NCBI RefSeq assembly: GCF_036323475.1
Contig: NZ_AP028934.1
Location: 2,418,001 to 2,482,000 of the forward strand
DNA length: 64,000 bases
Origin: Solobacterium moorei
Lineage (GTDB): Bacteria; Bacillota_I; Bacilli_A; Erysipelotrichales; Erysipelotrichaceae
Reading direction: 5' to 3'
Shown: positions 261-4,529 of the stretch, in pieces
Numbering within the stretch: position 1 is the stretch's first letter
Layout of the letters: each line of letters begins with the position of its first letter
Translations under genes and position numbers: made by a program
The notes under the pieces: model-generated
The model's input: the letters and a program-made list of their open reading frames with translations, nothing else
Told to the model about the DNA's origin: nothing
Database searches by the model: none

Positions 261-290
261 AAAGAGACTGCGAGGTCTCTTTCATTATTT
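261..290. terminator. Bidirectional terminator between convergent genes
   Basis: An 8-bp perfect stem, AAAGAGAC at 261-268 and GTCTCTTT at 275-282, has a 6-base loop and is followed by a T-rich stretch. It sits directly after the helicase stop and before the stop of the minus-strand gene, so it can serve both. Confidence 0.7.
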
Positions 291-1628
291 CCGATATGTT
301 AAGAACTGATTGTTCTTGTCTGCAAGCCACTTGTTTTTACCAATTTGATACCAAGTGTAATCACTTGTCTGTTCAACAGAAAGTACTGTAAACTTCTCTC
401 CACGCTTTGCGCTTCCCACTACATCAAAGTTTGTGCCTGCACCTCCACGAATATTCAAGGAGTCAATTACAACTTCAACTTCACCTAGTGTCTCTGGCGT
501 GGGTTCTGGAGTTGCTGGTGTAGCAGTAGGCTCTGGTGTCGCATCAGAGTTTGCGACTACGCTAGTTGTCTCATTCTTTGATCCAAAAAGTGATTTGAAA
601 TCAAACTTTCCACCCATTGAATCATATACAATCCAAGCTAGCCCAGCCAATAACATTAATGTTAGAATCACAATTAAGAATTTTACGAAGAAACTTCCAC
701 CCTTGGATTCCTCCTCTTCAATATCCTCAACCTCTCCATCATTCTCATCAAATAAATCTTTCTTGAGAACTTGAGTTGCAGAGGACCGCACCTCTTGTTC
801 ATGAGAAATTGGGGTCGGTTCTTCCTTCTCTGTTGGAAGTGATAATGTATCCTCAATTTCATCAGATCCTGATGTGGATGGTAAATCTGGAAATTGCACT
901 TCCTTACTCTTTTCTTGTGGAAGAGATGGTGTCTCTACTGGCTTCACAGTTTCTTCCGGTTGTGCAAATACACCACTGAGAATATCATTCTCTGCTGACT
1001 GTAGTGCAAGGTCATCTTGCATCTTCAAAACCAATGCACGCGATGATACTGGATTTAACTTATCCATCAATACGATTAATGTTCCTAAGTTGAAACCTCC
1101 ACTCATCAGTGTATCCTTGGCTTCCGTTAACCAACTCATTACAGATTGAGGTGTTGTCATCAATAGCTTTGCACTTTCCTCAATGGACAAACCATCATAT
1201 AAGTGAAGTGCTAAAGCAGCTCTAGCTCCCGTGCTAAGCTTATCCATCATCTCTAATACTTGGTACTTCTTTCCTTCAACTGTTTCAGGTAAAACTGCCA
1301 TGTAGTTAGGGATTTCATCTGCTTCCGTGTACATGTTGCTGTTGGTTGTAGATTCTTTTAATGGTAATACGTGGGCGATAGCTTCCTTACGAACAATTTC
1401 TGCTGCCCAGCACTCAAACCATTCCGAATTCGTTACTTCCTTTAGATTTGAGAATACCTTCTTTAGCCCAGCCTGTTCTACTTTTCTAGCTTGCTCGTGA
1501 TCTGCCACATATAATCTCGTAATAAAGTACATCTTATCTGAAATACGTCTGAGTATCTCCTTTGCGGCCTCAATATCACGTTGTTTTGCTTTTGTTAGTA
1601 ATTCCTGTATTGTCTGATTTTCTAACAT
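285..1628 (-). CDS. Membrane-anchored sigma-factor-like protein with outside SH3 domain
   Basis: The 447-residue protein has an unusual order of parts. Residues 1-85 resemble sigma-70 region 2 and residues 121-175 resemble region 4, with a helix-turn-helix-like LSIEESAKLLMTTPQSVMSW. An acidic, Pro/Ser/Thr-rich linker (about 215-310) follows, then one membrane helix (about 313-336), a Thr/Pro-rich stalk with repeated TPEPT-like units, and a C-terminal bacterial SH3 domain (about 383-443) with the typical LNIRGGAGTNFDVVG segment. This places the N terminus in the cytoplasm and SH3 outside, where such domains bind cell wall. The likely role is wall sensing or transcription control. This is inference: the sigma similarity is by eye and could reflect a non-sigma HTH protein. 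It lies 14 bases downstream of the UPF0210 gene in the same direction. Confidence 0.6.
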   Translation of the reverse strand: MLENQTIQELLTKAKQRDIEAAKEILRRISDKMYFITRLYVADHEQARKVEQAGLKKVFSNLKEVTNSEWFECWAAEIVRKEAIAHVLPLKESTTNSNMYTEADEIPNYMAVLPETVEGKKYQVLEMMDKLSTGARAALALHLYDGLSIEESAKLLMTTPQSVMSWLTEAKDTLMSGGFNLGTLIVLMDKLNPVSSRALVLKMQDDLALQSAENDILSGVFAQPEETVKPVETPSLPQEKSKEVQFPDLPSTSGSDEIEDTLSLPTEKEEPTPISHEQEVRSSATQVLKKDLFDENDGEVEDIEEEESKGGSFFVKFLIVILTLMLLAGLAWIVYDSMGGKFDFKSLFGSKNETTSVVANSDATPEPTATPATPEPTPETLGEVEVVIDSLNIRGGAGTNFDVVGSAKRGEKFTVLSVEQTSDYTWYQIGKNKWLADKNNQFLTYRK

Positions 1629-1642
1629 AATTCCCTCCAGTA

Positions 1643-3004
1643 TTAATTCTTCAAACTATGTATCGGGGCCGGAATTCTTCCACCACGATTGATTAGTTTA
1701 TCTGCTTTTGTCATCTTCACTGGCATGATTGGTCCTTCACCTAAAAGACCGCCAAATACTAGTTTATCCCCTGCATCCATGCCAATTGCTGGTATCAATC
1801 TGCATGCAGTTGTCTTATTGTTAATCATACCGATGGCAGCTTCATCTGCAATTATAGCAGATAGTGTCTCTGCTGTCGTATCACCAGGCACAATAATCAT
1901 ATCTAATCCAACGGAACATACCGCTGTCATTGCTTCTAATTTTTCAATTGTTAGGATTCCTCGCTCTGCTGCTGCAATCATCCCAGCATCTTCTGATACC
2001 GGAATAAACGCACCAGATAAACCACCTACACTTGAGGATGCCATGACGCCACCCTTCTTCACCGCATCATTTAACATTGCAAGCGCTGCAGTTGTTCCAG
2101 GACCACCACAAACTTCTAGACCAATCTCTTCTAGGATTTGCGCAACGGAATCGCCTACCGCAGGTGTTGGAGCTAATGATAAATCAACAATCCCAAATGG
2201 AACATTTAATCGCTGTGACGCTTCACGACCAACAAGCTGTCCCATACGCGTAATCTTAAATGCAGTTTGTTTTATGCATGCCGCAACTTCATCCATGCTC
2301 GCATGCTCTCCTAATTTTTGTAAAGCAGCACGCACTACACCAGGACCTGATACACCAACATTGATAACACAGTCTGGTTCAGATACGCCATGGAAGGCAC
2401 CTGCCATAAATGGGTTATCTTCTACCGCATTGCAGAATACAACAAGCTTTGCTGCGCCAAAGCAGTTATTATCTTTTGTGACCTCCGCACATTTACGAAC
2501 AATCTGCCCCATCAGTTTAACTGCATCCATGTTAATTCCAGCTTTAGTAGAGCCAATATTAACACTCGAACAAACAATATCTGTTTCCTTCAAAGCTTGT
2601 GGAATTGACATAATCAGCTCACGATCACCCTGTGTCATTCCCTTTTGAACTAAAGCAGAATATCCGCCAATAAAGTTAATGCCAATTTCTTTACCCGCTT
2701 TATCTAGTGTCTTCGCATATTTTACACAATCACCACCAGATACACTCTGTAATAGTGCAATTGGGGTTACTGATACACGCTGGTTGATAATTGGAATCCC
2801 ATATTCACGTGAGATATCCTTTGCAACTTTTACAAGGTCTTTTGCTTTTGTTGTAATTTTTTTATAAATCTTTTCGCATGAGCAATCAATGTCTTCATCT
2901 GCACAATCGAGCAGGGAAATTCCCATTGTAACTGTGCGAATATCTAGACAATCCTCCTCAATCATATGAATCGTTTCTAGTATATTATCACTTTCAATAC
3001 GCAT
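1643..3004 (-). CDS. UPF0210/PFL-family protein (DUF711)
   Basis: The 453-residue protein matches the UPF0210 family (DUF711, structurally related to glycyl radical enzymes but not proven to be one). Recognisable parts are the N-terminal IETIxMI-type start, the [15 protein letters not shown] segment, the [19 protein letters not shown] segment and the conserved C-terminal [18 protein letters not shown]. Length is usual for the family. No cellular role is established. It follows the ACT-domain gene by 8 bases; that pairing is conserved in many Firmicutes and argues for a shared function, perhaps amino-acid-responsive control. Confidence 0.88.
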
Positions 3005-3012
3005 AGATTCAC

Positions 3013-3282
3013 CTATATTGTATGCATGCTATTGAAGATATCTTCATGCATGACATGTACTTTGAGATGTTGTTCATCTCCAGCGCTTTCTAAATCATCA
3101 GCGACTTTACGGAAATTCTCTAGATTACTTGGAACTTCCACAATCATAATCATTGTAAATAAATCCTGTAGTACTTTCTGTGTTACATCAACGATATTGA
3201 TTTCTCTTTCAGCACATTTTGTTGCGATATATGCTAGAATGCCTGGCTTATCTTTGCCAACAACTGTAATAACCGCTCTCAT
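3013..3282 (-). CDS. ACT-domain protein, UPF0237 family
   Basis: This 89-residue protein is a single ACT domain ([17 protein letters not shown] at the start, then a second beta strand MIMIVEVP). ACT domains bind amino acids and regulate partner proteins. The size and the partner gene downstream (UPF0210) are both typical of the UPF0237 family, related to the GcvR regulator. It is cytosolic, with no signal or membrane segment. It probably acts as the regulatory partner of the UPF0210 protein; this is inferred from gene pairing. Confidence 0.87.
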
Positions 3283-3292
3283 ATATTCTCCT

Positions 3293-4453
3293 TTATTCAG
3301 CTTGTAGTTTTTCTAATGATAAACCACAGTAATACAATTCCATCCGTAAGAATAATTTTGTCTTTTTGACAAACTCAACAGTGCTATCTTCACATGTTGA
3401 TGTTTGACTATTATTCACAAAATCATACTGACATGCACCTAAACTACCATTATCACCCTTCCAACTATATACATAAGTGATCGAGCGATTGCTATAGGTA
3501 AATGTCTTATTCGCAAAATCAATGCGATAACTTTCATTCTCATTGAATTTATTGCTATATACATCTTCTGATTCCTTCGTGTAGTTTAAGCGTGATACCA
3601 GTCTCTTCTTAAAGGTTGCTGTAACAGTATCCTCTGGAGAATCATCATCTGTTGTCACTGTCTGAATCGAGTTTGTATCGATGTCCTTGTAATATACGTA
3701 TGCACTCTCAGCTTGTTTTGTTTCATCACTGATAGATACCGTTGTTTCACCAAACTTTAGATAGTTAATTTCACTTTCATATTTGACATTTACTGACTGT
3801 CCATTTGTTGTGATTGTAGTATCGAATAGTGCCGTTTCTTTCACGTAGTGCTGGTCTTCATCAAATGTCACATGAATTTCATTACTTGTGATATCAAATG
3901 AATCAAAGTTCTTTAAACCATAGGAATCATATCTACTTAAGAAGAGTTCTTTTGCACGCTCTGCTTGGAGTTGAATCGTATATTCATTTTTATCTTTCGT
4001 TATGGAGGCGATATCTCCAGCCTCAAATACATATGGATCTAGTGGAACTAACATCGTCTTCTTTAGATTACTAAAGTCCATATCTTCATAGTAATTGACA
4101 GAGTTATATGTGTTATACAATCTACCGCCGTAATAATCTCCATTTAGCTCTGATAACATTCCATCCGCATTGATGTGTTGTTCATAGTGAGCACTATCAC
4201 CATCTGTTTCTAACACTCCATCCATGAGATAAGTATCTAGTGTTTTATCGCTATATGTCATCGTATATTTTGACTGAACGCTTACTGTCCAAGAAGATTC
4301 AATCTTACGATTTTTAAGGGTTGTAGTATATTCTCCTAATGTGGAATCATCTGTCTGAATCGTCTGCTCTATACTGGATTGTTGTTGTGCTGTACGCTTT
4401 CCGCATCCTACTAACAGTAAAGCGGTAATACATAATATTTTTATCATTTTCAT
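3293..4453 (-). CDS. Lipoprotein of unknown function
   Basis: The 386-residue product starts with a short signal peptide and lipobox LLVGC, giving lipid-modified Cys17. The mature protein is rich in Thr, Ser, Asp and Tyr and in beta-strand-like stretches, with no family I recognise. It is an outside, membrane-anchored lipoprotein. The gene ends 10 bases upstream of the ACT-domain gene and may be the first gene of that operon. The two later cysteines in the C-terminal third (near GACQYDF and STCED) could form a disulfide. Confidence 0.75.
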   Translation of the reverse strand: MKMIKILCITALLLVGCGKRTAQQQSSIEQTIQTDDSTLGEYTTTLKNRKIESSWTVSVQSKYTMTYSDKTLDTYLMDGVLETDGDSAHYEQHINADGMLSELNGDYYGGRLYNTYNSVNYYEDMDFSNLKKTMLVPLDPYVFEAGDIASITKDKNEYTIQLQAERAKELFLSRYDSYGLKNFDSFDITSNEIHVTFDEDQHYVKETALFDTTITTNGQSVNVKYESEINYLKFGETTVSISDETKQAESAYVYYKDIDTNSIQTVTTDDDSPEDTVTATFKKRLVSRLNYTKESEDVYSNKFNENESYRIDFANKTFTYSNRSITYVYSWKGDNGSLGACQYDFVNNSQTSTCEDSTVEFVKKTKLFLRMELYYCGLSLEKLQAE

Positions 4454-4529
4454 ATGTTATTATTATATCAATCTTTAAACTCTTATACGATAGAAAGCCA
4501 TAAAATCTTCATACAAAACTAATCTAAGC

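Follow-up and report, generated by a model that had tools for sequence, protein, structure and literature searches.

Within the 64,000-nucleotide stretch of Solobacterium moorei DNA analysed here (the window), a gene with an ATG start and a product of 447 aa lies on the minus strand at 285..1628, positions at which the plus strand is full of stops. From N to C terminus the product consists of ECF-type sigma2 and sigma4 regions (a putative pseudo-sigma, as argued below), an acidic linker or tether, one membrane helix, a TPEPT stalk and an SH3_3 domain, and we refer to it here as sigma-SH3. A reading made from the sequence alone had listed these same parts in a single chain, and profile searches, a predicted structure, hydropathy and the sequence itself recover every one of them. 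The gene begins 15 bp downstream of a DUF711 (PFL-like) gene (1643..3004, minus strand; PF05167, E 2e-195), with an ACT-domain gene (3013..3282, minus strand; PF13740, E 2e-14) and a lipoprotein gene (3293..4453, minus strand) further upstream; gene order is conserved, and the DUF711 and ACT-domain genes likely share an operon with sigma-SH3.

Related genomes show the same domain order in at least 20 species of the genus. We found the architecture in about 23/70 genomes of the genus, a strong ortholog being present in 21 of them and a diverged one in G046 and G064, both small, and the sigma domains of the orthologs are from about 24% to 84% identical to that of the window protein. Measured against the closest ortholog (G059), dN/dS is about 0.08 for the whole gene and 0.045 for sigma4; the MAG SUG162 (L033), the sole match in the scan of genome contigs, has the same sequence as G059. 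With a dN/dS of about 0.08 the gene is constrained and under continuing strong selection, which shows that the protein still matters. Orthologs, conserved order and dN/dS together rule out an artefact or chance reading frame. A phage or plasmid origin was likewise rejected, there being no phage match and a single weak plasmid match (25%) to an ordinary sigma factor. In a tree the SH3 orthologs group with the SH3 paralogs at a support of 100/100, apart from both the soluble and the membrane-anchored canonical ECFs.

The lipoprotein is predicted to adopt a LolA/LppX/LprG/RseB-like fold (model pLDDT 85.6), its N-terminal domain matching LprG (Z 10.9), LppX (10.7), RseB (9.2) and MucB (6.7). It accompanies sigma-SH3, or the slot for that gene, in 20/21 loci, usually in the order lipoprotein-(ACT)-DUF711-sigma-SH3 and often downstream of ribosomal-protein/rpoA/rplQ genes, and in two small genomes it adjoins sigma-SH3 directly without ACT or DUF711. 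A role in sensing is attractive, since RseB, of like fold, acts outside the E. coli membrane as a regulator of sigmaE signalling (PMC8103513). We first favoured an obligate pair on the strength of the 20/21 loci, a view then weakened by the mostly empty slots: in the loci examined that lack the sigma-SH3 gene, lipoprotein-ACT-DUF711 mostly stands alone. Because 66/70 genomes of the genus have the lipoprotein and most of these have no sigma-SH3 ortholog, we regard its link to sigma-SH3 as suggestive only. Genus-wide, the DUF711 gene, often together with the ACT-domain gene, sits with the lipoprotein just past rpoA-rplQ (L058-L077). In about 8 loci (e.g. L034 1283-4329) genes for SPFH, zinc-ribbon and TPM-domain proteins also lie at a distance of two to three genes from sigma-SH3, a set that we take to resemble B. 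subtilis ydjGHI.

A TATAAT box of the sigmaA -10 type lies about 8 nt ahead of the lipoprotein start codon (4462..4467, within 4454-4470, minus strand). Similar boxes were seen by eye in most of 19 upstream regions, most members (L058-L077) having theirs about 8-15 nt ahead of the start codon, and the lipoprotein mRNA is probably leaderless. As these boxes recur in most members and no ECF-type motif was noticed by eye in the regions upstream of the operon, we see no sign of autoregulation, a point that counts against sigma-SH3 being an active ECF sigma factor, the main rival to the reading that we develop below.

Sigma fold and membrane anchor

The N-terminal half of the protein divides into a region 2-like domain (residues 1-92; 1353..1628, minus strand) and a region 4-like domain (residues 116-178; 1095..1283, minus strand), followed by two additional predicted helices (residues 181-191 and 196-220; 963..1094, minus strand), the second of lower confidence in the AF2 secondary structure. 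Pfam Sigma70_r4_2 (PF08281) matches residues 123-173 with an E of 9e-9, over its curated cut-off, and a Pfam region-4 match is found in 20/21 scanned orthologs. NCBIfam ECF models span regions 2 to 4 (residues 9-174) with a best E of 5e-14, under those models' equivalog cut-offs, and Pfam Sigma70_r2 gave no match in the window protein or in the scanned clade members. An AlphaFold model of residues 1-225, built with 41 relatives, reached a pLDDT of 91.5. In this predicted structure region 2 superposes on E. coli sigmaE region 2 (1or7, Z 14.1; 4lup, Z 14.0 over 90 residues), region 4 has a Foldseek match to sigmaE region 4 (2h27), and the full sigma domain superposes on SigW in its complex with RsiW (5wur, Z 13.6, 149 residues, rmsd 5.6). 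The N-terminal half is thus ECF-derived by profile and by predicted fold, as the sequence-only reading had supposed.

The predicted fold of the full domain also resembles CnrH in CnrH/CnrY and, more weakly, PhyR. Likeness to sigma factors in their anti-sigma complexes (SigW/RsiW, CnrH/CnrY) is what a PhyR-like sigma mimic might show, one that titrates an anti-sigma factor and thereby frees another sigma factor. We consider such a role very unlikely for sigma-SH3: a receiver domain is absent, and the genome offers little to pair with it. The window's genome contains sigmaA, a factor like SigH, and two short ORFs resembling mobile-element sigma or HTH genes; we found no further clear ECF there and no zf-HC2 anti-sigma protein that passed the cut-off, and it is this that disfavours titration. 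Nor does any anti-sigma gene adjoin the sigma-SH3 gene.

C-terminal to the sigma fold runs an acidic cytoplasmic tether (residues 223-316; 681..962, minus strand) with 25% D/E and a net charge of -19 over residues 196-316. Most clade members have tethers of 23-41% D/E, compared with 0-16% in their canonical anchored cousins. The one hydrophobic segment of the protein, residues 317-335 (624..680, minus strand; mean hydropathy 2.6), forms the predicted transmembrane helix. Its positive-inside signal is weak in the window sequence alone (net -3 before the helix) and clearer in several orthologs (+3 to +8). Outside follow the TPEPT-rich stalk (residues 336-381; 486..623, minus strand), with the TPEPT motif at about residues 360-381, and the bacterial SH3_3 domain (residues 382-447; 288..485, minus strand), for which PF08239 matches over 389-429 with an E of 2e-7 and 31.3 bits, against a curated cut-off of 27; the domain is recognised in 17/21 scanned orthologs. 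The genome also encodes a protein resembling LytR-CpsA-Psr wall enzymes whose C-terminal SH3 is 40% identical to that of sigma-SH3 (L002, G000:C1:2267558-2267806).

Contact residues for polymerase and promoter

The acidic DAED motif in region 2.2 is what ECF factors use to dock on the RNA polymerase beta-prime coiled coil, and those without it are intrinsically inactive (PMC8999054; PMC8103513). Acids of the DAED type are absent from region 2.2 of the window protein, which has QARK in their place (residues 46-49; 1482..1493, minus strand). With near-copies removed, we compared 20 members of the sigma-SH3 clade with 34 other ECFs from the same bacterial family, and found the fourth-position acid in 1/20 of the clade as against 32/34 of the others, and the E407-equivalent residue in 1/20 as against 25/34. 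The acid is kept by the paralogs L125_1, L126_2 and L128_8, which counts against the pseudo-sigma reading. Region 2.3 has changed as well: the Asn that corresponds to N88 of M. tuberculosis sigmaH is found in 4/20 clade members and 26/34 other ECFs. The sigmaH mutants N88A and W81A are both defective, and the N88 site varies with promoter specificity in some working ECFs (PMC6411747). In region 4 the recognition-helix segment (residues 161-174, QSVMSWLTEAKDTL; 1107..1148, minus strand) lacks the canonical Arg of the SRL motif. This sigma4.2 Arg, or any basic residue in its place, occurs in 0/20 of the clade, compared with 23/34 other ECFs, the Arg itself standing in 18/20 canonical membrane-anchored ECFs, and the first two positions of the segment carry acids in 11-13/20 clade members and 0/34 other ECFs. 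These marks were partly picked after the alignment had been seen, and the clade is one lineage, so that Fisher p-values on the residue counts overstate their independence.

The rest of the fold has been kept. Positions that form the conserved core of canonical ECFs (A47, W74, L131, R136, L141 and L167) remain at 80-100% in the clade, with W74, the equivalent of sigmaH W81, in 20/20 members, whereas the conserved contact positions 49, 77, 81, 162 and 166 fall to 0-20%, and the three acid-contact positions drop in conservation rank from the 75th percentile in canonical ECFs to the 18th in the clade. In the linker between sigma2 and sigma4 (residues 93-115; 1284..1352, minus strand), Y100, D104 and E105 rise to the 98th percentile of clade conservation; E105 is present in 20/20 members and D104 in 18/18 where aligned, and acids here are more conserved than in canonical ECFs. 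Together with W74, R136, L167 and A47, the linker acids hold at 90-100%. As read from the alignments, then, the clade has lost three functional surfaces together, while fold, core and linker acids remain conserved.

Could region 4 instead serve as an ordinary HTH, in a membrane-bound one-component DNA-binding regulator of the ToxR or CadC kind that does not dock on RNA polymerase? Its retention of the Pfam match across orthologs fits, as does its conservation, the highest of any part of the protein when the two closest orthologs are compared (92% identity at its dN/dS of 0.045). The surface that would read DNA behaves otherwise, with the recognition helix only at the 35th conservation percentile in the clade and with acids gained there, and we regard this alternative as unlikely.

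A proposed retooled sigma domain tied to the wall

We favour the view that the sigma part is a retooled pseudo-sigma that would not initiate transcription and would act by protein contacts within a wall-facing, membrane-anchored signalling or adaptor protein, and we would give it about an even chance of being right. As its sigma part has lost the residues that grip RNA polymerase and promoters, the protein would sooner be a sensor or adaptor put to new use than a one-piece transcription switch, and its cytoplasmic ECF fold would no longer dock on polymerase or promoters in the canonical way. In such a protein the SH3 domain may hold or read peptidoglycan through the stalk, the single helix would relay tension or contact to the cytoplasmic side, and there the sigma fold and the acidic tether would bind a protein. 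A candidate partner is the flap or clamp of RNA polymerase, contacted in a non-initiating mode; alternatively another partner might bind at the conserved surface formed by R38-L39-Y40, W74 and Y100/D104/E105. The adjacent LolA/RseB-fold lipoprotein may work outside the membrane in the same pathway. A more elaborate version, in which the acidic juxtamembrane tether of a wall-tethered, non-initiating domain derived from a sigma factor has taken over the charge for polymerase contact that the sigma2.2 helix once held, and in which wall contact through SH3 and helix governs the capture of polymerase at the membrane, strikes us as a long shot.

The pseudo-sigma view is preferred over that of an active one-piece ECF sigma factor, kept at the membrane until the SH3 domain detects damage to the wall and then either cut free by regulated proteolysis or rearranged, which we consider possible and rather doubtful. 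Such a factor would fit the full-length ECF profile match on a sigma fold, the canonical membrane-anchored cousins in the same genus, some of them SH3-bearing (L129), and the precedents of IutY (PMC8999054) and of ECF52/SCO4117, which is thought to work in this way (PMC5826349). Its best argument is the retention of W74 and the linker acids. In real ECFs this linker enters the active-site cleft of RNA polymerase (PMC6411747), and since its acids are so highly conserved, contact with polymerase may persist, which would count against the pseudo-sigma view; the changes in the recognition helix could also mean a different promoter. Set against an active factor are the clade-wide loss of DAED, the sigma4.2 Arg and the Asn, the acids found where the recognition helix begins, and a chain that carries no anti-sigma-like zinc finger. 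The sequence-only reading had envisaged a one-piece sensor running from wall to polymerase without a separate anti-sigma factor. The SH3 tether and the want of an adjoining anti-sigma gene, or of a zf-HC2 protein above cut-off in the genome, agree with that picture, but its sigma-type link to RNA polymerase has become doubtful with the residues lost in the clade.

If the pseudo-sigma view is true, a sigma fold in Bacillota has left transcription initiation and yet stays tied to wall sensing, and the working one-piece cousins in the same genus form a natural comparison set. If instead the sigma domain is active, it would be an ECF that docks on polymerase with no DAED contact, and this would have a bearing on our understanding of that contact. 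On both views, one-piece membrane sigma proteins are numerous in the Erysipelotrichaceae.

Comparison with known systems

The order of domains, which had seemed unfamiliar for Firmicutes, is not unique: Actinobacteria have one-piece proteins that join an ECF domain to a membrane segment and a wall-binding part, as described for ECF52 (PMC5826349), and the genus itself contains canonical-looking examples (L129), of which some carry a similar SH3. Our literature search on ECF sigma factors in Erysipelotrichaceae returned no description, and a search for proteins combining SH3, sigma and transmembrane parts found none described in the titles and abstracts of the papers returned. The canonical membrane-anchored ECFs of the same family (L129, L110-L124) are similar to sigma-SH3 in joining an ECF domain, one transmembrane helix and an ectodomain, and several in L129 end in a similar SH3; they differ in keeping the DAED acid (18/20) and the sigma4.2 Arg at the frequency given above, and in having neutral tethers, unlike sigma-SH3. 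L129 itself (G013:C60:26000-44000) is a tandem array of at least four full-length ECF genes with near-identical canonical sigma domains and differing ectodomains, three of which end in an SH3 like that of the window protein and one of which has long VWA/calcium-repeat-like sequence. In other genera of the family, G157 and G162 (L110-L120) show expansions of one-piece membrane-anchored ECFs with 71 and 31 matches; ORFs of about 330-600 aa lie behind about 60 and about 28 of these, respectively, most ORFs measuring 330-490 aa, and the proteins that we read have canonical DAED-type motifs and usually one transmembrane helix.

Loss of the DAED motif of region 2.2 is shared with the ECF43 factors EcfP and EcfK, which are inactive until phosphorylated at that site (PMC8999054). 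ECF43 proteins have a phosphorylatable Thr at the site and a kinase gene nearby, whereas sigma-SH3 has QARK, and Ser/Thr is not conserved at the motif in the clade, which rules out an EcfP-like phosphoswitch. We found no Ser/Thr kinase gene among the window neighbours, the other loci being compared by gene cluster only. PhyR of Alphaproteobacteria resembles our proposal in using a sigma fold for protein contact, the relationship shown being one of fold only. It is a soluble response regulator with a receiver domain, whereas the window protein has only Sigma70_r4 and SH3_3 above Pfam cut-off. The RseB/LppX/LprG/LolA fold, in turn, belongs to the neighbouring lipoprotein and not to sigma-SH3.

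The closest known architecture is ECF52 (SCO4117 of Streptomyces), which runs from an ECF domain through a zinc finger, a membrane segment and a proline-rich stalk to a carbohydrate-binding domain (PMC5826349). Similar to sigma-SH3, it is a single chain with the ECF domain inside, a membrane segment, a proline-rich stalk and a binding domain outside, and needs no separate anti-sigma gene. Between sigma4 and the membrane helix no zinc finger matched among the families listed for 21 sigma-SH3 members. Thus ECF52 combines an anti-sigma-like zinc finger with a carbohydrate-binding domain, whereas sigma-SH3 combines an SH3 domain and an acidic tether with a sigma fold that has lost its residues for contact with RNA polymerase.
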